From NCBI GenBank assembly GCA_016780995.1, contig JADHKZ010000007.1, forward strand, positions 1 through 34,642: 34,642 nt of DNA, in the 5' to 3' direction. Both the position numbers and the translations under genes were made by a program. Within the stretch, counting starts at the first letter, position 1. Every line of letters begins with the position of its first letter. This DNA is from Thermoleophilia bacterium (GTDB lineage Bacteria; Actinomycetota; Thermoleophilia; Miltoncostaeales; Miltoncostaeaceae). Shown in pieces: positions 975 through 29,112 of the stretch. Below the pieces are notes generated by a model. That model was not told the DNA's origin. It saw only the letters and a program-made list of their open reading frames with translations, and did no database searches.

Positions 975-2203
975 TGGCACGCGTGCTCTACGTGTCGCAG
1001 TACTTCGTGAGCGGCGACCAGCCCGGCGGCGTGCGCCACTGGCAGCACTGCCGCGCCCTGGCCCGCGCGGGCCACCAGGTGACCGTGGTCACCTCGTACG
1101 TGCAGCACAAGGAGCGCACCATCCCGGAGGAGTTCCGGGGGCGGCGCATCGTGCGCACGCACGAGGACGGCCTGGACGTGGTGCGCACCTACTCCACGCC
1201 CGGCTACGGACGCGACCTGCGCTCGCGACTGTCGAACTACGGCACGTTCGCCCTGTGGTCGCTCATCGCCGAGCTGCGCCTGCCGCGGCCGGACGTGGTG
1301 GTGGCCTCGTCCCCCTCGCTGCCCGCGGCCGCAGCCGCCGCCGCGGTGGCGCGCGCCCGCCGCGCGCGGTTCCTGCTGGAGGTACGCGACCTCTGGCCCG
1401 ATTCCGCGGTGGCCATGGGACTGGTCACCGACCCGCGGGTCATCGGCGCCGCGCGGCGCATGGAGCACTACTGCTACCGACGCGCCGACCGCATCGTGGC
1501 CCTCACCGAGGGCATCCGCGACGGGGTCGTCCAGTCGGGCGTGGTGCCCGCCGGCCGCGTGAGCCTCATCACCAACGGGGTGGACCTGGACGTGCACCCC
1601 GACCCGGCCCACCCCGCACGGCTCGACGTGCCCGACGATGCCTTCGTGGCCATGTTCGTGGGCGCGCACGGCACGTACTCGTCGCTCGAGACCGTGCTGG
1701 GCGCCGCCGACCTGCTGAGGGACGACCCCGGCATCCGGGTGGTGCTGGTGGGCGGCGGTGACCGCAAGCCCGCGCTGGTGCAGCAAGCCGCCGACATGCG
1801 GCTGTCCAACGTCACGTTCGTCGACCCCGTGCCCAAGCGCCAGGTGCCCGCCTACCTGGAGCGCGCCCATCTGTGCCTGCTGCCCTACCAGGACCGCGAG
1901 CTGTTCGCGGGGGCGCTGCCCAACAAGGTGTTCGACTACCTGGCCGCCGCGCGGCCCATCCTGGCCTCGGCGCCCGTAGGCGAGCTCACGCGCCTGGTGG
2001 ACCGCGCCGGCTGCGGGTGGAACGTGGCCCCCGAGGACCCCGCCGCCATGGCCGCAGCCATCCGGGCCGCGGCGGCCGACCGCACCGCCGCGGCCGCGCG
2101 TGGCGCCGCGGGGCGCGAGTACGCCCTGCAGCACTACGACCGGGCGCGCCTGGCCCAGCGGTTCGTGGGCCTGGTGGACGACCTCGCGGCCGGGGCCCGC
2201 TGA
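974..2203 (+). CDS. Glycosyltransferase family 4 (WbuB-like)
   Basis: A 409-residue GT-B glycosyltransferase. The N-terminal acceptor domain starts with L-Y-V-S-Q-Y-F and G-G-V-R-H. The middle carries E-V-R-D-L-W-P-D-S, common in WbuB-type amino-sugar transferases. The C-terminal donor domain has N-G-V-D-L-D (about residue 198), V-L-V-G-G-G and L-P-N-K-V-F-D-Y-L-A-A (about 320). The ATG at 974 overlaps the upstream stop by one base. Longer open sequence upstream is the shadow of the previous gene, so this start is well supported. It ends in TGATG with the next gene. Likely adds a (deoxy)amino sugar to an undecaprenyl-linked glycan, but the substrate is inference. Confidence 0.88.
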   Translation: MARVLYVSQYFVSGDQPGGVRHWQHCRALARAGHQVTVVTSYVQHKERTIPEEFRGRRIVRTHEDGLDVVRTYSTPGYGRDLRSRLSNYGTFALWSLIAELRLPRPDVVVASSPSLPAAAAAAAVARARRARFLLEVRDLWPDSAVAMGLVTDPRVIGAARRMEHYCYRRADRIVALTEGIRDGVVQSGVVPAGRVSLITNGVDLDVHPDPAHPARLDVPDDAFVAMFVGAHGTYSSLETVLGAADLLRDDPGIRVVLVGGGDRKPALVQQAADMRLSNVTFVDPVPKRQVPAYLERAHLCLLPYQDRELFAGALPNKVFDYLAAARPILASAPVGELTRLVDRAGCGWNVAPEDPAAMAAAIRAAAADRTAAAARGAAGREYALQHYDRARLAQRFVGLVDDLAAGAR

Positions 2204-2883
2204 TGCCCGGCGCCGCCGTGCTCCGCTACCGTGGGGCGGACGTGCAGGACTCCGTGCCCCACACCGTGGTGGGAGGCAGCGCCAAGCGCGCCTTCGACCT
2301 GGCCGTTGCCATCCCGGCCACCATCATCCTGGCCCCCGTGATGGCGGGAGTGGCCGCGTGGGTGCGCATCGACTCCCCGGGGCCGGCCATCTTCCGCCAG
2401 CGCCGCGCGGGGGCCTTCGGCCGGCCATTCACCTGCCTCAAGTTCCGCTCCATGGTGGACGGCGCCGAGGGCAAGGGCGCGGGCCTCACGGTCACCGAGG
2501 ACGACGACCGCATCACGCGCGTCGGCCGCGTGCTGCGCCGCCTTTCGCTGGATGAGCTGCCGCAGCTCATCAACGTGATCCGCGGCGACATGAGCATCGT
2601 GGGGCCCCGCCCCACCGTGCCGTCGCAGGTCGTCCACTACGACCAGGTGCAGCGCCGGCGCCTCATGGCCCGTCCGGGCATCACCGGGTTGGCCCAGGTG
2701 CGCGGGCGCGCGTCCATCCCGTGGTCGGAGCGCATCGCCCTGGACGTGGAGTACGTGGATACCTGGTCCATGGGGCTCGACCTGCGCATCATCGCCGACA
2801 CCATCCGCGTGGTGCTGCGCGGCGAGGGCCAGTACCGCGGCGAGCAGGGCGGGTTCGACCTGGCGAGGGGCGCGAATGGCTGA
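2203..2883 (+). CDS. Undecaprenyl-phosphate sugar phosphotransferase (monotopic PGT)
   Basis: A 226-residue bacterial sugar transferase of the PglC/WbaP C-terminal type. One N-terminal hydrophobic segment (residues about 30-50) follows S-A-K-R-A-F-D-L and would form the re-entrant membrane helix. Downstream are I-F-R-Q-R-R-A-G, K-F-R-S-M, the catalytic Asp-Glu pair in L-S-L-D-E-L-P-Q-L, V-G-P-R-P and R-P-G-I-T-G-L-A-Q-V-R-G-R. The family transfers phospho-sugar from a UDP-sugar to undecaprenyl phosphate, the first membrane step in capsule, exopolysaccharide or glycan assembly. The length matches the small PglC type without extra N-terminal helices. The gene overlaps its neighbours on both sides (TGATG upstream, 8 bases downstream). 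Confidence 0.92.
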   Translation: MPGAAVLRYRGADVQDSVPHTVVGGSAKRAFDLAVAIPATIILAPVMAGVAAWVRIDSPGPAIFRQRRAGAFGRPFTCLKFRSMVDGAEGKGAGLTVTEDDDRITRVGRVLRRLSLDELPQLINVIRGDMSIVGPRPTVPSQVVHYDQVQRRRLMARPGITGLAQVRGRASIPWSERIALDVEYVDTWSMGLDLRIIADTIRVVLRGEGQYRGEQGGFDLARGANG

Positions 2884-3904
2884 CCACCCCTCGGTGCTGC
2901 TCACCTGCTCGGGCCAGCGCGTGGACATCGTGCGCGCCTTCCGCGATGCGCTCGCGCGCCGCGGCGAGGGCGGGCGCGTGATCGTGAGCGACCTCGACCC
3001 GCTGTCGCCATCGCTGGTGTCGGCCGACATGGTGGTACAGCTGCCCGCGGTGGACGACCCCGGGTACGGCGCGGCGGTGGCCGAGGTGGTGTCCCGCGAG
3101 GGCGTGGGCGCGGTGCTGCCCCTCACCGACCTCGACCCGGTGGTGCTGGCGACGGCCGCGCCGCTGGTGGCCGCCGCGGGGGGCACGGTGTTCCTGCCCG
3201 CGCCGGAGGTGGCCGCGGCATGCCAGGACAAGTGGCTGTGCCACGAGGCGCTGCAGGCCGCCGGGCTGCCGTCGCCCCCCACCTGGCCGGTGGATGGCAC
3301 CGACAAGGGCGCCCTGCCGTATCCCATGATGATCAAGCCGCGCATCGGATTCGCCGGCCGATGGATCCACCGCTGCGACGACCGCGGGGAGCTCGACTTC
3401 TTCCTGGCGCGCACGCCGGTGGCCAGCGTGCTGCAGCAGGCGCTGCCCGGCGAGGAGTTCAGCATCGACTGCCTCGGCTCCCTGGACGGCCGGGCCATCG
3501 GCGCCATCCCCCGCGCCATGTACCAGAGCAAGGGCGGCGAGCAGATCAAGGGCGAGACCCTGGACGACCCCCAGCTGGTGGACCTGGCCGCGGCCGTCAT
3601 CGAGCGGCTGGGCCTGATGGGCCCCTGCACCATCCAGTGCTTCCGCCAGGGCGACCGCATCCTGGGCGTCACCGACATCAACACCCGCTTCGGCGGCGGG
3701 TTCCCGCTGCCACTGGCCGCGGGCGGCGACTACCCCTTCCTCATCCTGGCCATGGCCGCCGGGGAGGACGTCGCGCCCCAACTGGGAACACACAGGGCGG
3801 GCGTGGTGATGACACGCTTCCTGTCGGAGCACGTGCTCGTGCGCGACGGGGACCGGCTGCGGTCCATGGACGGCCGTGAGGAGGCGGTGACCGGTGGCAT
3901 CTGA
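2876..3904 (+). CDS. ATP-grasp domain protein, CarB/PylC-like
   Basis: A 342-residue protein with a Rossmann-like pre-ATP-grasp domain (residues 1-110, opening V-L-L-T-C-S-G-Q-R) and an ATP-grasp domain (about 115-310). K154 in M-M-I-K-P-R is a likely ATP-binding lysine. D267, N269 and R271 in D-I-N-T-R-F-G-G-G match the metal/ATP loop, with Asp where many relatives have Glu. ATP-grasp enzymes activate a carboxylate as an acyl phosphate and ligate it to an amine or thiol. Inside a glycan cluster this could aminoacylate a sugar or make a modified precursor, but the substrate is unknown. The ATG overlaps the upstream gene by 8 bases. The C-terminal end contains the Shine-Dalgarno sequence of the next gene. 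Confidence 0.8.
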   Translation: MADHPSVLLTCSGQRVDIVRAFRDALARRGEGGRVIVSDLDPLSPSLVSADMVVQLPAVDDPGYGAAVAEVVSREGVGAVLPLTDLDPVVLATAAPLVAAAGGTVFLPAPEVAAACQDKWLCHEALQAAGLPSPPTWPVDGTDKGALPYPMMIKPRIGFAGRWIHRCDDRGELDFFLARTPVASVLQQALPGEEFSIDCLGSLDGRAIGAIPRAMYQSKGGEQIKGETLDDPQLVDLAAAVIERLGLMGPCTIQCFRQGDRILGVTDINTRFGGGFPLPLAAGGDYPFLILAMAAGEDVAPQLGTHRAGVVMTRFLSEHVLVRDGDRLRSMDGREEAVTGGI

Positions 3905-4685
3905 TCGCGAGATCACCCTGGGCGATGTGTGGCGCGCCATCTGGCGCGGCAAGTGGATCATCGTGGCCACCACCATCATCGCGGCGCTGGTGGCGTTCGC
4001 CATCACGTTCACGTCGGAGACCACCTACAGCGCCACCGCCAAGGTGTACCTGGGCCAGGCCACCACGATGATGGGCAACCTGGCCTCCACGCCCGGAACC
4101 AACCCGCTCACGGCCGCCACGGTGCTCACGGGCGATGCCGTGGTGGACTCCGTGGCGCAGGCCACGGGCCTCACGCCGGGGGCGGTGCGCGCCCGCACCA
4201 ACGTCGCGGTGCCGCGCGCACCGGGAACTGTCACCGCCAACCAACCCGCCATCGCCACGATCACGGCACGCACCGCCACGCGCGACGAGTCGGTACGCCT
4301 GGCCAATGCCTATGCCGAGGCCGCCCTGGAGGGCGCCAGCGGGGGCTACGAGTCGGTCAGCACCACGCTGGACCAGCAGGTGCGTCGCCTGCGCGCCGAG
4401 GAGGTTCGCCTGCAGGCCCTGGTGCGTCGCGCGCCCACCGCGGACAACCTGTCCCGGCTCACCGACCTGCGCGAGGTGCTCACCACCTCCGAGCTGCAGC
4501 TTGCACGCGTGGCGCAGATCGAGGCCCCCGCCATCATCACCCTGGCCAAGGGCGCGGCATCGTCGGCCAGCACGTCCAACCGGGTGCGCACGGCCCTCAT
4601 CGGGGCCGTCATCGGATTCCTGGTGGGCATCGTCATCGCCCTGGCCACGAGCGGCGGCATCCGGCGCGAGGCCGGGCCCGCGTAG
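3894..4685 (+). CDS. Wzz/chain-length determinant family protein
   Basis: A 263-residue polysaccharide co-polymerase. Topology is typical: a cytoplasmic leader with I-T-L-G-D-V-W-R-A-I-W-R, a first membrane helix at about 21-40, an extracytoplasmic region with a helical stretch at about 150-215 (D-Q-Q-V-R-R-L-R-A-E-E-V), and a second helix at about 232-253. There is no C-terminal tyrosine-kinase domain and no Walker motif, so it resembles the membrane half of the actinobacterial and firmicute systems. The GTG at 3894 is preceded by GAGGAGG at 3878-3884, a strong Shine-Dalgarno at normal spacing, and overlaps the upstream gene by 11 bases. Probable role: setting glycan chain length. No polymerase (Wzy) is recognisable in the window. 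Confidence 0.82.
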   Translation: MASDREITLGDVWRAIWRGKWIIVATTIIAALVAFAITFTSETTYSATAKVYLGQATTMMGNLASTPGTNPLTAATVLTGDAVVDSVAQATGLTPGAVRARTNVAVPRAPGTVTANQPAIATITARTATRDESVRLANAYAEAALEGASGGYESVSTTLDQQVRRLRAEEVRLQALVRRAPTADNLSRLTDLREVLTTSELQLARVAQIEAPAIITLAKGAASSASTSNRVRTALIGAVIGFLVGIVIALATSGGIRREAGPA

Positions 4686-4695
4686 CCGGCGCGCC

Positions 4696-5937
4696 GTGGC
4701 GATAGTCCCCCGGTCGGAGAGGGCGGTCGCCTGGACCATCTCGGCGGTCCTGGGGCTCATCGCCCTCGTGCTCATCGGGTACCTGGTGGTGAGCGGCGGG
4801 CTGGACGACGGAGACCAGCTGGGCACCGCCACCGGATTCGCGGTGGTCGAGCAACCCGATGCCGACCTGGGGACGAGCAGGTGGCCCGAGTACGGCTACA
4901 ACGCCGAGCGCACGCGCGCCAACCCCGACCTGCAGCTGCCGCCCCCGTACCGCCGGGCATGGACGCGCGACCTGGGCTCCCTGCTGGAGTTCCCGCCGGT
5001 CATCAACCGCGGACGCCTGTTCGTGGGCACCAACAAGCGCCAGGCCTACGCCGTGAACGTGCGCACCGGCACGGTGGAGTGGCGGCGCAAGCTCACCGGC
5101 CGGTCGGCGGCCTCGCCCGCCATCGCGGGCGACCTGGTGCTGTTCACCAGCATCAACGGCTACGTGGAGGCCATGGACCAGGCCACGTCGCGCATCGCCT
5201 GGCGCCGCGACGTGGGCACGTCCACCGAGTCGTCCCCGCTGGTCATCGGCAACCGGGCCTACGTGGGCACGCTGGGCGGGCTCATCCTGTGCATGGACGT
5301 GCGCACCGGGCGGCTCATCTGGACCGCGCGCGCCACCGGCGAGGTGAAGTCCAGCCTCACCCGGGCCGGGCGCCTGGTGGTGGTGGGCGACTACGGCGGG
5401 CGCATCACCGCCCTCTCGGCGCGCAATGGTCGCATCCGCTGGCGCACCACCAGCCCCGGCACGCTGGTGGGCGGCGCCGGCGCCTTCTACGCCAACCCCG
5501 CGGTGGCCTACGGCCGGGTGTTCGCCAGCAACGTCAACGGACGGGTCATCTCGCTCGACCGGCGCACGGGCGCGGTGGCATGGGTGCGCGTGCTGGGCGA
5601 CTGGGCCTACTCCAGCCCGGCCGTGCACGACCAGACCGTGTACGTGGGCTCCTACGACAAGAAGCTCTACGCCCTGAGCGCCGTCACCGGGGGCGTGCGC
5701 TGGACGTTCGACGCCGGCGAGCGCATCGCCGGCTCGGCGACGGTCATCGGCGACCTGGTGTGGTTCTCCACCATCGCCCGCAGGCCGCGTGACGGCCGTA
5801 CCTTCGCGCTCGACGCGAAGACCGGGAAGCGCGTCTTCACCTTCCCCGATGGCCGCTACACGCCCGCCACCGGGGTGGACGGCATGCTGGTCCTCACCGG
5901 CGTGCGCACCCTCTACGGGATGAAGCCCGCGGGATGA
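4696..5937 (+). CDS. Membrane-anchored PQQ-like beta-propeller protein
   Basis: A 413-residue protein with one N-terminal membrane segment (A-W-T-I-S-A-V-L-G-L-I-A-L-V, residues about 12-35) followed by a long extracytoplasmic beta-propeller. Repeated blades show the PQQ-repeat pattern G-x-x-x-A-x-[DN]-x-x-T-G-x-x-x-W, for example N-V-R-T-G-T-V-E-W and D-V-R-T-G-R-L-I-W, about seven times. No quinone-binding or catalytic residues stand out, so this is probably a scaffold like BamB rather than a dehydrogenase. The GTG at 4696 was chosen because it precedes the membrane segment and lies 10 bases after the previous stop; no good Shine-Dalgarno is visible. The last four bases overlap the MurJ gene (ATGA). 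A role in glycan export or wall attachment is inferred from context only. Confidence 0.8.
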   Translation: MAIVPRSERAVAWTISAVLGLIALVLIGYLVVSGGLDDGDQLGTATGFAVVEQPDADLGTSRWPEYGYNAERTRANPDLQLPPPYRRAWTRDLGSLLEFPPVINRGRLFVGTNKRQAYAVNVRTGTVEWRRKLTGRSAASPAIAGDLVLFTSINGYVEAMDQATSRIAWRRDVGTSTESSPLVIGNRAYVGTLGGLILCMDVRTGRLIWTARATGEVKSSLTRAGRLVVVGDYGGRITALSARNGRIRWRTTSPGTLVGGAGAFYANPAVAYGRVFASNVNGRVISLDRRTGAVAWVRVLGDWAYSSPAVHDQTVYVGSYDKKLYALSAVTGGVRWTFDAGERIAGSATVIGDLVWFSTIARRPRDGRTFALDAKTGKRVFTFPDGRYTPATGVDGMLVLTGVRTLYGMKPAG

Positions 5938-20979: not shown

Positions 20980-21047
20980 TCGCCTGTTGCTCCTTGGGAC
21001 ACGGCTTCGGGGCTGGTCGCCGGGGCAATCCGGCTCACGACGCGGGA

Positions 21048-21056
21048 ATATTACCA
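21048..21056 (-). promoter_or_regulatory. Extended -10 promoter (TGG-TAATAT) of the rpmH operon
   Basis: On the minus strand TAATAT is preceded by TGG, an extended -10. It predicts a leader of about 60 bases before the rpmH GTG, including the Shine-Dalgarno. This is the most AT-rich hexamer of all promoters seen here, in keeping with a ribosomal operon. Confidence 0.6.
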
Positions 21057-21142
21057 GAGGCGCGGCCCCTGCGCGCCCGTCCCGATGCGCCCGGGCGGGG
21101 CGGCCGAGTTTTCCCCAAAACGTCCACATCTGTGGATTCTCC

Positions 21143-21151
21143 TGTGGATAA
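21143..21151 (-). promoter_or_regulatory. Perfect DnaA box
   Basis: TGTGGATAA on the plus strand is the complement of TTATCCACA, the consensus DnaA box. It is the only perfect copy I found in the two intergenic regions. Confidence 0.85.
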
Positions 21152-21292
21152 CGGGGGTTTTCCCTGCTCGCAGCGAGTTGCGGGCGCATGTTTTTTCTGC
21201 TGTCTCCTGAGTCGGCAACTGTTTTTCCCGCATACACGGGGGTGCGTCATCCACAGGGGCATCGGAGGGCCGATCGGGCCATTCCGCATTGG

Positions 21293-21298
21293 TAGCGT
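21293..21298 (+). promoter_or_regulatory. -10 element (TAGCGT) of the ATPase-dnaA operon
   Basis: TAGCGT ends 11 bases before the ATG at 21310, so the leader would be only about 4 bases. A DnaA box (21247-21255) lies about 40 bases upstream, where bound DnaA could repress or activate. No separate dnaA promoter was seen. Confidence 0.5.
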
Positions 21299-21309
21299 GC
21301 CGCGCCCGG

Positions 21310-22038
21310 ATGAGCACCGAACTTCCCGACAGCATCGGCGGCGTGCAGATCCACGGCACCACATACGTGGTGCGCGTGGCCGTGCACCGGGCCGCGCTGG
21401 AGCCACCCGCCATCACCGAGATCCGCGATATCGCGCCTGCGGCGGTGATCGAGTCGGTGTTCTCCGCCGTGGCCCAGGTGTCGTCGGTGCCCCCGCTGGC
21501 CCTGCGTGAGGTGATCGAGAACCTCATCCACGCCGACTTCCGCGATGGCCTGGTGACGGTGCTGGATGGCGGCCGCACCGTGCGCGTGTCCGACCGCGGG
21601 CCCGGCATCCAGGACCCCCGCAGGGCGATGGAGCCCGGGTACACCACCGCCGACGAGGCCGTGCGCGCCGTGGTGCGGGGTGCGGGATCGGGCCTGGCCC
21701 TGGCCTCGGGCCTGGTGGCCGCCGAGGGTGGTCTCCTCGAGGTGGAGGACAACCTGGGCGGCGGCACGGTGGTCACCATCACGGTGGATGCGGCCCCGGC
21801 GCCCGACGGCGCGGGCGACCCCCCGCAGCCCAGCGATGCCCAGCGGCGCCTGCTGGCCCTCCTGCTGGAGATGGCGCCGGCGCATCCCGAGACGATGGCG
21901 CGCGAGCTCGACTTGCCGCTCGGCGTGGTGGGCCGCGAACTGGTGCTGCTGGAGCACCGTGGCCTGGTGGCCCGCTTCGCGGACGGCGGGCGCGTTCTCA
22001 CCGAGCGCGGTGCGGCAATCGTGGCGACCCTCTTCTAG
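21310..22038 (+). CDS. GHKL-type ATPase with C-terminal winged helix, upstream of dnaA
   Basis: A 242-residue protein I cannot name. The ATPase half has the Bergerat-fold boxes: N-box A-L-R-E-V-I-E-N-L-I-H-A-D-F (64-77, with E67 and N71), G1 V-S-D-R-G-P-G-I (93-100), G2 G-A-G-S-G-L-A-L-A (124-132) and G-G-G-T-V-V-T-I-T-V (150-159). There is no histidine-phosphotransfer or receiver domain. The N-box resembles predicted HATPase-HTH transcription regulators and, less closely, SpoIIAB/RsbW anti-sigma kinases. Residues about 176-242 read as a winged helix (E-T-M-A-R-E-L-D-L-P, L-E-H-R-G-L-V-A). It ends 3 bases before dnaA and shares its promoter. A TTG at 21289 is a less likely start. Confidence 0.75.
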   Translation: MSTELPDSIGGVQIHGTTYVVRVAVHRAALEPPAITEIRDIAPAAVIESVFSAVAQVSSVPPLALREVIENLIHADFRDGLVTVLDGGRTVRVSDRGPGIQDPRRAMEPGYTTADEAVRAVVRGAGSGLALASGLVAAEGGLLEVEDNLGGGTVVTITVDAAPAPDGAGDPPQPSDAQRRLLALLLEMAPAHPETMARELDLPLGVVGRELVLLEHRGLVARFADGGRVLTERGAAIVATLF

Positions 22039-22041
22039 GCC

Positions 22042-23469
22042 ATGGGCGCAGGCGTACCTCTCATCCAGGACCAGGGCCGGCTCGACGCCGTGTGGCAGCA
22101 GGTGCTCGAGCGGCTGCGCGGCGCGCTGAATGGCGCCACCTACAGCCTCACCTTCGAGCGCGCCCGGGCACTGGGGTTCGAGGACGGTCGCTTCCGGATT
22201 GGCGTGGAGACCGAGTTCGCGCGCGGGTGGATCGTGCAGCGCTACGACTCCCTGGTGCGCGACGCGCTGTTCGAGGTGCTGGGCAACGACGTCGCGGTCG
22301 CCGTGGAGGTGGTGCCCCCCGCGCCCCCGGCCGACGGGGATGGGCCCGCCCCACAGGCGGCCGCGCCCATGCCGCCACCGCCCGCGCGTGCGCCGGTCGC
22401 CCCGCCCGCGGCCAACGACGCGGCCGGCCGCCTGCAGGGCCGGTTCACCTTCGACGCCTTCGTCATCGGGCCCAGCAACCGCTTCGCCCACGCCGCGGCA
22501 CTGGCCGTGGCCGAGACGCCCGCGCGTGCCTACAACCCGCTGTTCATCTACGGGGGCGTGGGGCTGGGCAAGACCCATCTCCTCCACGCCATTGGCCACT
22601 ACGCGGCCGAGAACCATCCCGGCCTGGCGGTGCGGTACGTGTCGGTGGAGACATTCACCAATGAGTTCATCAACGCCCTGCGCGACGGCGGCATCCGGTC
22701 GTTCAAGGACCGCTACCGCAGCACGGACATCCTGCTCATCGACGACATCCAGATGCTGGAGGGGCGCGAGCAGACCCAGGAGGAGTTCTTCCACACCTTC
22801 AACGCGCTGCACGACCACGGCAAGCAGATCGTGATCTCCAGCGACCGGCCGCCGAGCGCCATCAAGACCCTGGAGGACCGCCTGCGGTCGCGCTTCGAGA
22901 TGGGGCTCATCACCGACGTGCAGCCGCCGGACCTGGAGCTGCGCATCGCCATCCTGCGCAAGCGGGTTCAGACCGACGGATACCAGATACGCGACCCCGA
23001 GGTGCTGTCGTTCATCGCCGCGCGGGTGTCCACGAACGTGCGCCAACTCGAGGGCGCCCTCATCCGCGTGATCGCCCACTCGTCCATATCAGGGCGTCCG
23101 GTCACTGTTGACCTGGCGCAGGAGGTGCTGTCCGACCTCTTCCCCACAGGGGGCGGGGAGGTGCGCATCGACGTCATCCAGGAGGCTGCCGCACGGCACT
23201 ACGGCGTGTCGTTGGATGAGTTAGTGGGTGAGAAGCGCACGAAGCGCGTGGTGGTGCCCCGCCAGGTGGCCATGTTCCTGTGCCGTGAGCTCACCGACGC
23301 CTCCCTGCCCGCCATCGGCCGGGCCTTCGGCGGCCGAGATCACACCACGGTCATCTACGCGGTGCAGAAGGTGACCAAGCAGATGTCCGAGGAGGGCGAG
23401 GTCTACGAGGCCGTACAGCTCCTCACCCAGTCCCTCACGGGACGCGCAGGCACCTCCCCCCAGGCCTGA
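22042..23469 (+). CDS. dnaA: Chromosomal replication initiator DnaA
   Basis: A 475-residue DnaA with all four domains: domain I (about 1-90; V-W-Q-Q-V-L-E-R-L), a Pro/Ala-rich linker (about 92-130), the AAA+ domain with Walker A G-G-V-G-L-G-K-T (171-178) and Walker B I-L-L-I-D-D-I-Q (about 230-237), and the DNA-binding domain IV with F-G-G-R-D-H-T-T-V-I-Y-A-V (429-441). It opens the origin and is also a transcription factor. The ATG follows the ATPase gene stop by 3 bases with no Shine-Dalgarno, so translation is probably coupled. Hairpins follow the stop. Confidence 0.97.
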   Translation: MGAGVPLIQDQGRLDAVWQQVLERLRGALNGATYSLTFERARALGFEDGRFRIGVETEFARGWIVQRYDSLVRDALFEVLGNDVAVAVEVVPPAPPADGDGPAPQAAAPMPPPPARAPVAPPAANDAAGRLQGRFTFDAFVIGPSNRFAHAAALAVAETPARAYNPLFIYGGVGLGKTHLLHAIGHYAAENHPGLAVRYVSVETFTNEFINALRDGGIRSFKDRYRSTDILLIDDIQMLEGREQTQEEFFHTFNALHDHGKQIVISSDRPPSAIKTLEDRLRSRFEMGLITDVQPPDLELRIAILRKRVQTDGYQIRDPEVLSFIAARVSTNVRQLEGALIRVIAHSSISGRPVTVDLAQEVLSDLFPTGGGEVRIDVIQEAAARHYGVSLDELVGEKRTKRVVVPRQVAMFLCRELTDASLPAIGRAFGGRDHTTVIYAVQKVTKQMSEEGEVYEAVQLLTQSLTGRAGTSPQA

Positions 23470-23473
23470 CCCA

Positions 23474-23513
23474 CGGGAAAATCCCGCGCGGTGCAGGCAC
23501 CGCGCCGAACGGC
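23474..23513 (+). terminator. Hairpin cluster directly after dnaA
   Basis: Three adjacent inverted repeats start 5 bases after the dnaA stop: CGGGA-AAA-TCCCG (23474-23486), GCGCGGTGC-AG-GCACCGCGC (23486-23505, perfect 9-base arms) and GCCG-AA-CGGC (23504-23513). No T-run follows. It may end dnaA transcription or insulate the origin. Confidence 0.5.
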
Positions 23514-23600
23514 GTCCTGTGGGGTACCCGGGTTTCCCCTGTGGACAGCCTGTGGAGAGCCGGGGGGAAACCCTGCCATCTATCCCCACTCCCCACAATG

Positions 23601-23620
23601 CCCCGTGGCTACGGGGTTTT
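23601..23620 (+). terminator. Hairpin plus T-run inside the origin
   Basis: CCCCGT and ACGGGG form a 6-bp stem with loop GGCT, followed by TTTT. This looks like a short intrinsic terminator, on the plus strand, for transcription leaving dnaA. Confidence 0.4.
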
Positions 23621-23743
23621 CGCTGTGGACGCCTGTGAGTAAACGCAGGGGTTTTCGGGATTTCCCCACAGGTAATCCACAGGCTCAAAAAAGGAGGTTA
23701 CGCAGCGATAACACGGTCCTATCCCCGACATCCACAGCACCTA

Positions 23744-23758
23744 TGGTGGTTACCACCA
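23744..23758. repeat. Perfect inverted repeat TGGTGGT-T-ACCACCA
   Basis: Seven-base arms around one central T, 8 bases after the last DnaA-box-like site and at the edge of the AT-richest stretch. It may be a binding site for an origin or dnaN regulator. It differs from parS and DnaA boxes. Confidence 0.7.
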
Positions 23759-23834
23759 CTTCTTAATCCCTTCGTTTACACCAACGTATGACATGACCTG
23801 TCAGGGGCGCGGGCAGGGGCGCCCCGGCGCCGGG

Positions 23835-23840
23835 TACGCT
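23835..23840 (+). promoter_or_regulatory. -10 element (TACGCT), leaderless promoter of dnaN
   Basis: TACGCT ends 6 bases before the GTG at 23847. No Shine-Dalgarno is seen. The promoter supports choosing this GTG over open codons upstream. Confidence 0.55.
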
Positions 23841-23846
23841 GCCGCC

Positions 23847-24950
23847 GTGCGTCTGACCTGTCCCCGCGATGAACTGGCCACCCGCCTGGCCCTGGCGTCC
23901 CGCGCCGCGTCGAGCAAGGGGACCATTCCGGTGCTGGCCAATGTGCTGCTGCGCGCCGAGGAGGGCGTTGTGGAGTTGGCCGCCACCGACATGGAGGTAT
24001 CGCTGCGCGTTCCCCTGGAGGACGCCGGCGTGGAAGAGCATGGCTCGGTGGTGCTCCCGCGGCTCGCCGCGGACCTGGTGAGGAGCATGGCCCCGGGTCC
24101 GGTGTCGCTCACGCACAACGAGAACGAGGGCCAGGTGCAGGTGTCGGGCGGTGGGTCGTCGTTCAGCCTCAACTGCCACCAGGCCGGCGAGTACCCGGAG
24201 CTCCCGCCCGACTCCGGCGTGGGCATCGCGGTACCGGCCGACAGGTTCGTGGCGTGCGCCGAGCGCGTGGTGCGGGCGGCCTCGCGCGACGAGACCCGCC
24301 CGGTGCTCACCGGCGTGCTGGTGCGCATCGGCCCCGACGGCCTCACCATGGCGGCCACTGACAGCTACCGCTTGGCCGTGCGCACCGTTCCGCTCGACTC
24401 ACCGCCCTCCGATGTGCGCGAGGCAATCCTCCCGGCACGCGCGGTGGGGGAAGCTGCCCGTCTTGCGGGGCAGGCCGGCACCGGCGACGTGGACATCGTG
24501 CTGGGTGAGTCCCAGGGCGTGCTGCGCGTGGGAGGCATCAGCCTCACCACCCGCCTCATCGACGGTCAATTCCCTGACTACCGCCAGCTCATCCCCGCTG
24601 AGTTCGACCACGACGTGCGCCTGGATCGCGCCGAGTTCCTGGCCGTGCTCACGCGCATCGGCGTGCTGGCGCAGCGCACGTCGCCACTTCGCCTCTCGTT
24701 CGAGCCGGGCCAGCTCACCGTGGCCACCGCCAGCGACCAGGTGGGCGAGGGACGCGAGTCGATGCCCGTGCCGTACCAGGGCGAGGCGCTGGAGATCGGC
24801 TTCAACGCCGACTTCCTGCGCGAGGGCGTGGAGGGGATTGACGGCGACGAGGTTCGGCTGGGCCTCATCAGCCCGCTTCGCCCCGGCCTGCTGCGCGGGG
24901 AGGGGGAGGATCACCGCTACCTCCTCATGCCCATCCGGCTCCCCGGGTAG
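23847..24950 (+). CDS. dnaN: DNA polymerase III sliding clamp (beta)
   Basis: A 367-residue beta clamp with three repeated clamp domains. The N-terminus R-L-T-C-P-R-D-E-L, then K-G-T-I-P-V-L-A-N-V-L-L-R-A and A-T-D-M-E-V-S-L are typical of domain 1. A-A-T-D-S-Y-R-L-A-V-R is the domain 2 signature, and F-P-D-Y-R-Q-L-I-P marks the start of domain 3. The C-terminus Y-L-L-M-P-I-R-L-P-G is the standard ending. It encircles DNA and tethers polymerase and repair enzymes. The GTG at 23847 fits the family N-terminus and a leaderless promoter. It is followed by recF after 4 bases. Confidence 0.96.
   Translation: MRLTCPRDELATRLALASRAASSKGTIPVLANVLLRAEEGVVELAATDMEVSLRVPLEDAGVEEHGSVVLPRLAADLVRSMAPGPVSLTHNENEGQVQVSGGGSSFSLNCHQAGEYPELPPDSGVGIAVPADRFVACAERVVRAASRDETRPVLTGVLVRIGPDGLTMAATDSYRLAVRTVPLDSPPSDVREAILPARAVGEAARLAGQAGTGDVDIVLGESQGVLRVGGISLTTRLIDGQFPDYRQLIPAEFDHDVRLDRAEFLAVLTRIGVLAQRTSPLRLSFEPGQLTVATASDQVGEGRESMPVPYQGEALEIGFNADFLREGVEGIDGDEVRLGLISPLRPGLLRGEGEDHRYLLMPIRLPG

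Positions 24951-26077: not shown

Positions 26078-26088
<11 letters not shown>
24955..26088 (+). CDS. recF: DNA replication and repair protein RecF
   Basis: A 377-residue SMC-like ATPase. Walker A G-P-N-G-A-G-K-T is at 35-42, L-P-E-E-L-R-A-V-K-G-P-P-A-A-R-R-R at about 122-138, G-P-H-R-D-D in the later core, the ABC-type signature S-Q-G-E-Q-R-T near 298, and Walker B L-V-L-D-D-V-L-S-E-L-D near 320. RecF loads RecA at single-strand gaps with RecO and RecR. The N-terminal G-A-W-T-A-T-H-L-D-V-S-D-V-R-S is shortened compared with many RecF proteins. The GTG start lies 4 bases after the dnaN stop. The end overlaps the DUF721 gene by 11 bases. Confidence 0.93.

Positions 26089-29112
<3,024 letters not shown>

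Follow-up and report, generated by a model that had tools for sequence, protein, structure and literature searches.

A GHKL ATPase with a MarR-type winged helix, encoded beside dnaA, as a candidate regulator of DnaA or the replication origin

We analyzed a 34,642-nucleotide stretch of DNA from a Thermoleophilia bacterium (the window) and find that the first gene of its dnaA operon encodes a small protein in which, as its sequence features and fold model together show, a GHKL (Bergerat) ATPase domain is joined to a MarR-type winged helix. Its product is probably a regulator, so far overlooked, of DnaA, which initiates replication of the bacterial chromosome, or of the origin itself. Among the readings weighed below, we lean toward an ATP-binding regulator of transcription or of the origin that is encoded within the dnaA operon. 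As far as we searched, no dnaA-linked family with this architecture has been described: neither Pfam nor NCBIfam holds a family-specific model, and no published description of the gene was found in the open-access literature. What is already known comprises the GHKL and MarR-type domains themselves and DIP2311, a GHKL protein whose solved structure can be aligned to the winged-helix part as well.

The features of the locus are collected in Table 1. An earlier note on this DNA gave the gene a span of 21310–22041; its start holds, whereas the frame closes with a TAG at 22038 and the GCC at 22039–22041, which had been counted in, is a spacer. This GCC, between the TAG and the dnaA ATG at 22042, is the 3-base gap to dnaA that the note had correctly described. 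Because the gap is so short, we infer that the GHKL-winged helix gene is co-transcribed with dnaA; the spacer is also 3 nt in the genus, with one member showing a 1-nt stop/start overlap. The DnaA encoded in the window has its three usual domains by Pfam, and the divergent neighbors 5′ of the GHKL-winged helix gene are rpmH (on the minus strand), rnpA and yidC. Elsewhere in the window, a gene for DciA (DUF721), a predicted helicase operator, lies at 26078–26563 between recF and gyrB.

Table 1. Positions, in window coordinates, of the GHKL-winged helix gene, its conserved parts and the flanking elements
Feature	Position	Strand	Remarks
Composite DnaA-box element TCCACA-N2-TGTGGA-N6-TGTGGATAA	21123..21151	.	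5′ of operon
TTTTTCCCGC, not a DnaA box	21222..21231	+	Conserved 5′ of operon in the window's family
TTGGTAGCGT, likely −10 (TAGCGT fits TANNNT)	21289..21298	+	Putative operon promoter; 11 nt to start codon
GHKL-winged helix protein gene, 242 aa	21310..22038	+	First gene of dnaA operon; ATG to TAG
N-terminal beta strands, residues 19–40	21364..21429	+	Conserved R22-x-A24, P33; consensus RIAVYD...PR; 5′ of ATPase domain; from alignments
N-box E67-V-I-E70-N71-L-I-H74	21508..21531	+	From alignment and hhalign
G1 box D95-x-G97-P98-G99	21592..21606	+	Invariant in 65 sequences
G2 box G124-x-G126-x-G128-L129	21679..21696	+	Invariant in 65 sequences, though overlapping a search pattern
MarR-type winged helix, residues 170–242	21817..22035	+	R209 (recognition helix) and R228 (wing) invariant
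dnaA	22042..23469	+	3 nt 3′ of GHKL-winged helix gene
dnaA-dnaN intergenic region, five DnaA-box cores	23470..23852	.	Likely oriC

Pfam places HATPase_c at residues 64–161 of the window protein (E = 6.8e-10; 39.8 bits against a cut-off of 26.4) and DprA_WH, also above its cut-off, at residues 170–226 (E = 6.9e-6). HATPase_c is matched by all 65 family members and helix-turn-helix families by many of them. The AlphaFold model, built without nucleotide or DNA (mean pLDDT 85.6, pTM 0.62), consists of an alpha/beta domain (19–160), which includes strands at 19–25 and 34–40, and a winged helix (170–242). The model matches GHKL domains, with a best PDB hit at Z 14.9, so that the Bergerat fold, whose absence would have counted against the proposal, is present in the prediction. 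Its C-terminal domain matches MarR proteins (Z about 14) and has a recognition helix and a wing, in agreement with Pfam. Thus, the anatomy first read from the sequence, GHKL boxes followed by a C-terminal winged helix with no kinase domain, is borne out by Pfam and the fold model alike.

The closest structural match to the model is DIP2311 of Corynebacterium diphtheriae (PDB 3lmm, a structural genomics target), which superimposes on the GHKL domain with an rmsd of 2.4 Å over 145 residues and whose Foldseek alignments, spanning 255–272 columns, extend into the winged-helix part. However, DIP2311 comprises 477–556 residues in the structure and hence has further domains, and identity is only 14–16%. 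The MarR-family regulators 2qww and 3voe resemble the C-terminal domain (Z about 13–14 over 70–74 residues) but have no ATPase domain. The ATPase domains of MutL and GyrB share the E-x3-N spacing of the N-box, and MutL chains match the family profile at about 3e-5; these proteins carry further domains, whereas the window protein is small and has a winged helix instead.

Within the 65 aligned sequences, E67, N71, D95, G97, G99, G124, G126, G128, R209 and R228 are invariant. Part of this invariance reflects selection in the GTDB contig scan, which used the patterns ENL[IVL]HAxFxD and [VI]RG[VA]GSGL[PA][LI]. Members found by profile vary at E70 (Thr or Asp) and once at E67 (Ala), and retain N71 and H74. 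The hhalign comparison sets E67 and N71 opposite the corresponding Glu/Asn pair of the window's own GyrB, at low probability. Because a nearly invariant Glu lies four residues before the N-box Asn, slow ATP hydrolysis, as in a timer or switch, seems more likely than passive binding. The exception at E67 is a Bacillota member (L132, genome G606, 2298–3197), perhaps a non-hydrolyzing variant. Long, variable and often Gln/Pro-rich linkers separate the ATPase domain from the winged helix in five loci (L127, L128, L129, L133 and L134), their carriers being some Coriobacteriia and one genome of the Bacillota phylum; the winged helix is retained even where the linker reaches 100–200 residues.

SpoIIAB likewise has a Glu four residues before its N-box Asn, which raises the question of whether the window protein is a serine kinase and anti-sigma factor of the SpoIIAB/RsbW kind that sits in the dnaA operon by chance. 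Both are small GHKL proteins, the NCBIfam SpoIIAB model weakly matches 37 of the 65 members, and SpoIIAB structures match the family profile at about 1e-3. Nevertheless, we rejected membership of this family, as the window protein scores 24 bits against the TIGR01925 cut-off of 135. SpoIIAB and RsbW are, to our knowledge, devoid of a winged helix and not tied to dnaA, and we noticed no gene for an anti-sigma antagonist next to dnaA in the window. We therefore hold such a kinase to be very improbable.

Still less credence can be given to a histidine-kinase remnant with a DNA-binding tail. The best sequence matches of the ATPase domain are indeed histidine kinases, but Pfam finds a HisKA/DHp dimerization domain neither in the window protein nor in any of the 65 members, which excludes them from that class, and the family is an old one, present in single copy and separated by a large score gap from the histidine kinases of the same genomes.

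The family was delimited by several searches. The first covered 41 genomes, all with a match at E ≤ 0.001, and returned long, high-scoring matches in only 24; the remainder (E of 1e-10 or weaker) covered the ATPase domain inside longer frames, the pattern that histidine kinases would give. dnaA lies directly 3′ in 20 loci inspected from this search. The GTDB contig scan yielded 80 loci from records titled Miltoncostaeales, other Thermoleophilia, Coriobacteriia, Anaerosomatales, Aquicultor, CSP1-3, ANGP1, Armatimonadetes and Bacillota, and dnaA follows directly and co-directionally in 78, the other two contigs ending earlier. Three loci (L027, L030 and L036) come from public metagenome-assembled genome records titled Bifidobacterium breve; their genes are 80–86% identical to those of the window's Thermoleophilia lineage, and the titles look wrong. 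By profile search, 154 of 396 Actinomycetota genomes carry the gene, nearly always in one copy. Among 80 of these carriers surveyed, dnaA was located in 76: near and co-directional in 66, across the ends of a circular chromosome in 7, split between contigs in 2 and divergent in 1 (G410). Large nominal distances between the gene and dnaA in some genomes are due to partial matches, since a Gln/Pro-rich linker of 100–200 residues parts the two domains in some Coriobacteriia.

Homologues are thus found next to dnaA at all 78 evaluable scan loci, and in 73 of 74 evaluable Actinomycetota genomes dnaA lies directly 3′, the sole exception being adjacent but divergent. Homologues lying mostly elsewhere, which the earlier note had named as evidence against its proposal, were therefore not what these surveys showed. 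The note had suggested a survey of co-conservation across Actinomycetota; our searches also extend the linkage across several phyla beyond Actinomycetota. In the CSP1-3/Sysuimicrobiota phylum (that of the L049 genome) 35 of 36 genomes carry the gene, in the Bacillota phylum of the L102 genome (titled Clostridia) 31 of 299, and one Armatimonadota record has it; dnaA is also directly 3′ in the Bacillota regions that we inspected (L132, L133, L136 and L137). In two genomes (G330 and G360) the gene opens the chromosome record, followed by dnaA. Carriers apparently include bacteria of the human gut and mouth. Single copy number and a dnaA neighbor accordingly mark the proposed family. The only change of orientation is at L128 (G410, 2063–5817), where the gene and dnaA are divergent and lie about 0.6 kb apart; the operon is lost here, but linkage to the origin persists.

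These data bear on whether the protein regulates other genes and stays near dnaA only through gene dosage or operon inertia. Gene order close to the origin is often conserved, and the lack of an assigned site in the dnaA region (see below) would suit such a regulator. On the other hand, adjacency to dnaA persists across phyla even in lineages where rpmH does not adjoin the pair, and it outlives the flip at L128, making an unrelated target improbable. The gene is absent from most Actinomycetota and Bacillota genomes searched, and DnaA function in general therefore does not need it.

Pairwise dN/dS within the genus (0.04–0.26 for the GHKL-winged helix gene, 0.06–0.20 for dnaA) shows, at the level of sequence comparison, strong purifying selection, with values about as low as those of dnaA. 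The protein and DnaA trees are broadly congruent, with many clades in common, and their distances correlate (r = 0.59; none of 999 permutations as high), a correlation that partly reflects shared species history. This pattern fits mostly vertical inheritance with losses, and the gene and dnaA may also have been transferred as a pair. With the queries used, no relic of the gene was detected in gene-negative loci. The earlier note saw the gene as inserted into a standard origin; because the gene is old and widespread, it may just as plausibly have been lost in other lineages as inserted in this one.

The gene-dnaA pair is flanked by DnaA-box groups on both sides, as had been proposed: we counted four TCCACA/TGTGGA cores in 20992–21309 and five in 23470–23852. 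In these two intergenic regions the cores reach about 13 per kb, compared with 0.15 per kb in the rest of the window (~85-fold). One exact TTATCCACA occurs at 21143–21151 on the minus strand, together with two one-mismatch sites. Throughout the genus, the region from rpmH to the gene contains TCCACA-N2-TGTGGA, TGTGGATAA, TTTTTCCCGC, TCCACAG, TTGGTAG[CG]GT and the ATG in a fixed order, and TTGGTAG[CG]GT lies just 5′ of the ATG in the window and in all ten aligned genus relatives. In the window, TTGGTAGCGT is the likely −10 element of the operon promoter, which would thus fall inside a DnaA-box cluster, and the mRNA may be leaderless because the ATG is only 11 nt past this element. A scan for sigma70-type promoters, which does not cover actinobacterial promoters, gave no match in 20980–22100.

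Comparison of k-mers, palindromes and motifs among the upstream regions assigned no binding site to the winged helix, and DnaA boxes are the sole k-mers strongly common to these regions. The palindrome TCCACA-N2-TGTGGA is present as a single copy in 39 of 58 upstream regions, whereas all 53 dnaA-dnaN regions lack it, a pattern suggestive of an operator. The palindrome was nevertheless rejected as an operator of the GHKL-winged helix protein and read as a DnaA element because genomes without the gene have it too (16 of 66 gene-negative loci). Since the palindrome is a pair of DnaA boxes that gene-negative relatives share, the likeliest reading is that DnaA autoregulates the operon headed by the GHKL-winged helix gene. 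A further motif, TTTTTCCCGC, was found in 19 of 22 regions of the window's family (shuffled mean 3.3) and in 2 of 45 from other clades (shuffled 2.8), with one gene-negative relative showing a similar arrangement. Motifs like it stand about 20 nt 5′ of a TCCACA box in the L027–L048 upstream regions and at 21222–21231 of the window, and could possibly be an operator or an unwinding element.

The reading we favor, an ATP-binding regulator encoded in the dnaA operon, would work as follows. The GHKL domain would bind ATP and change its shape or dimer state with the nucleotide, as in other Bergerat ATPases, and this state would govern how the winged helix binds DNA, MarR-type domains being dimeric as a rule. 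The DNA target would be its own operon's control region, the adjacent origin or both, and dnaA expression or origin firing would follow the nucleotide state or a partner. Counted against a regulator of this kind are the lack of a protein-specific DNA site, the patchy distribution noted above and the Ala at E67 in L132. We hold more tentatively, as something that could well prove wrong, that the family is an ancient, dedicated ATP-sensing regulator of initiation in deep Actinomycetota, Sysuimicrobiota, Armatimonadota and some Bacillota that would act directly on the origin or on DnaA-box clusters.

A different possibility is that the protein is a direct orisome factor, which would bind DnaA or origin DNA and control the opening of the strands or the loading of the helicase instead of transcription. 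Consistent with this, the gene is linked not only to the operon but also to the origin, as at L128 across its 0.6-kb intergenic region, and the pair lies between DnaA-box clusters. Furthermore, known regulators of DnaA such as Hda, YabA, SirA and Soj often act on the DnaA protein itself. The winged helix, however, most resembles those of transcription regulators, and we consider a purely orisomal role rather unlikely.

Like Hda, YabA, SirA, Soj, SeqA, DiaA and MtrA, the GHKL-winged helix protein is proposed to control DnaA or dnaA expression; we know of none among these that is a GHKL ATPase. If the proposal is true, the combination of a GHKL domain with a winged helix would represent a class not known among DnaA regulators. 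The control of DnaA beyond the Escherichia coli and Bacillus models is poorly known, and a gene kept in one copy next to dnaA across phylum-level distances offers a strong clue to function.
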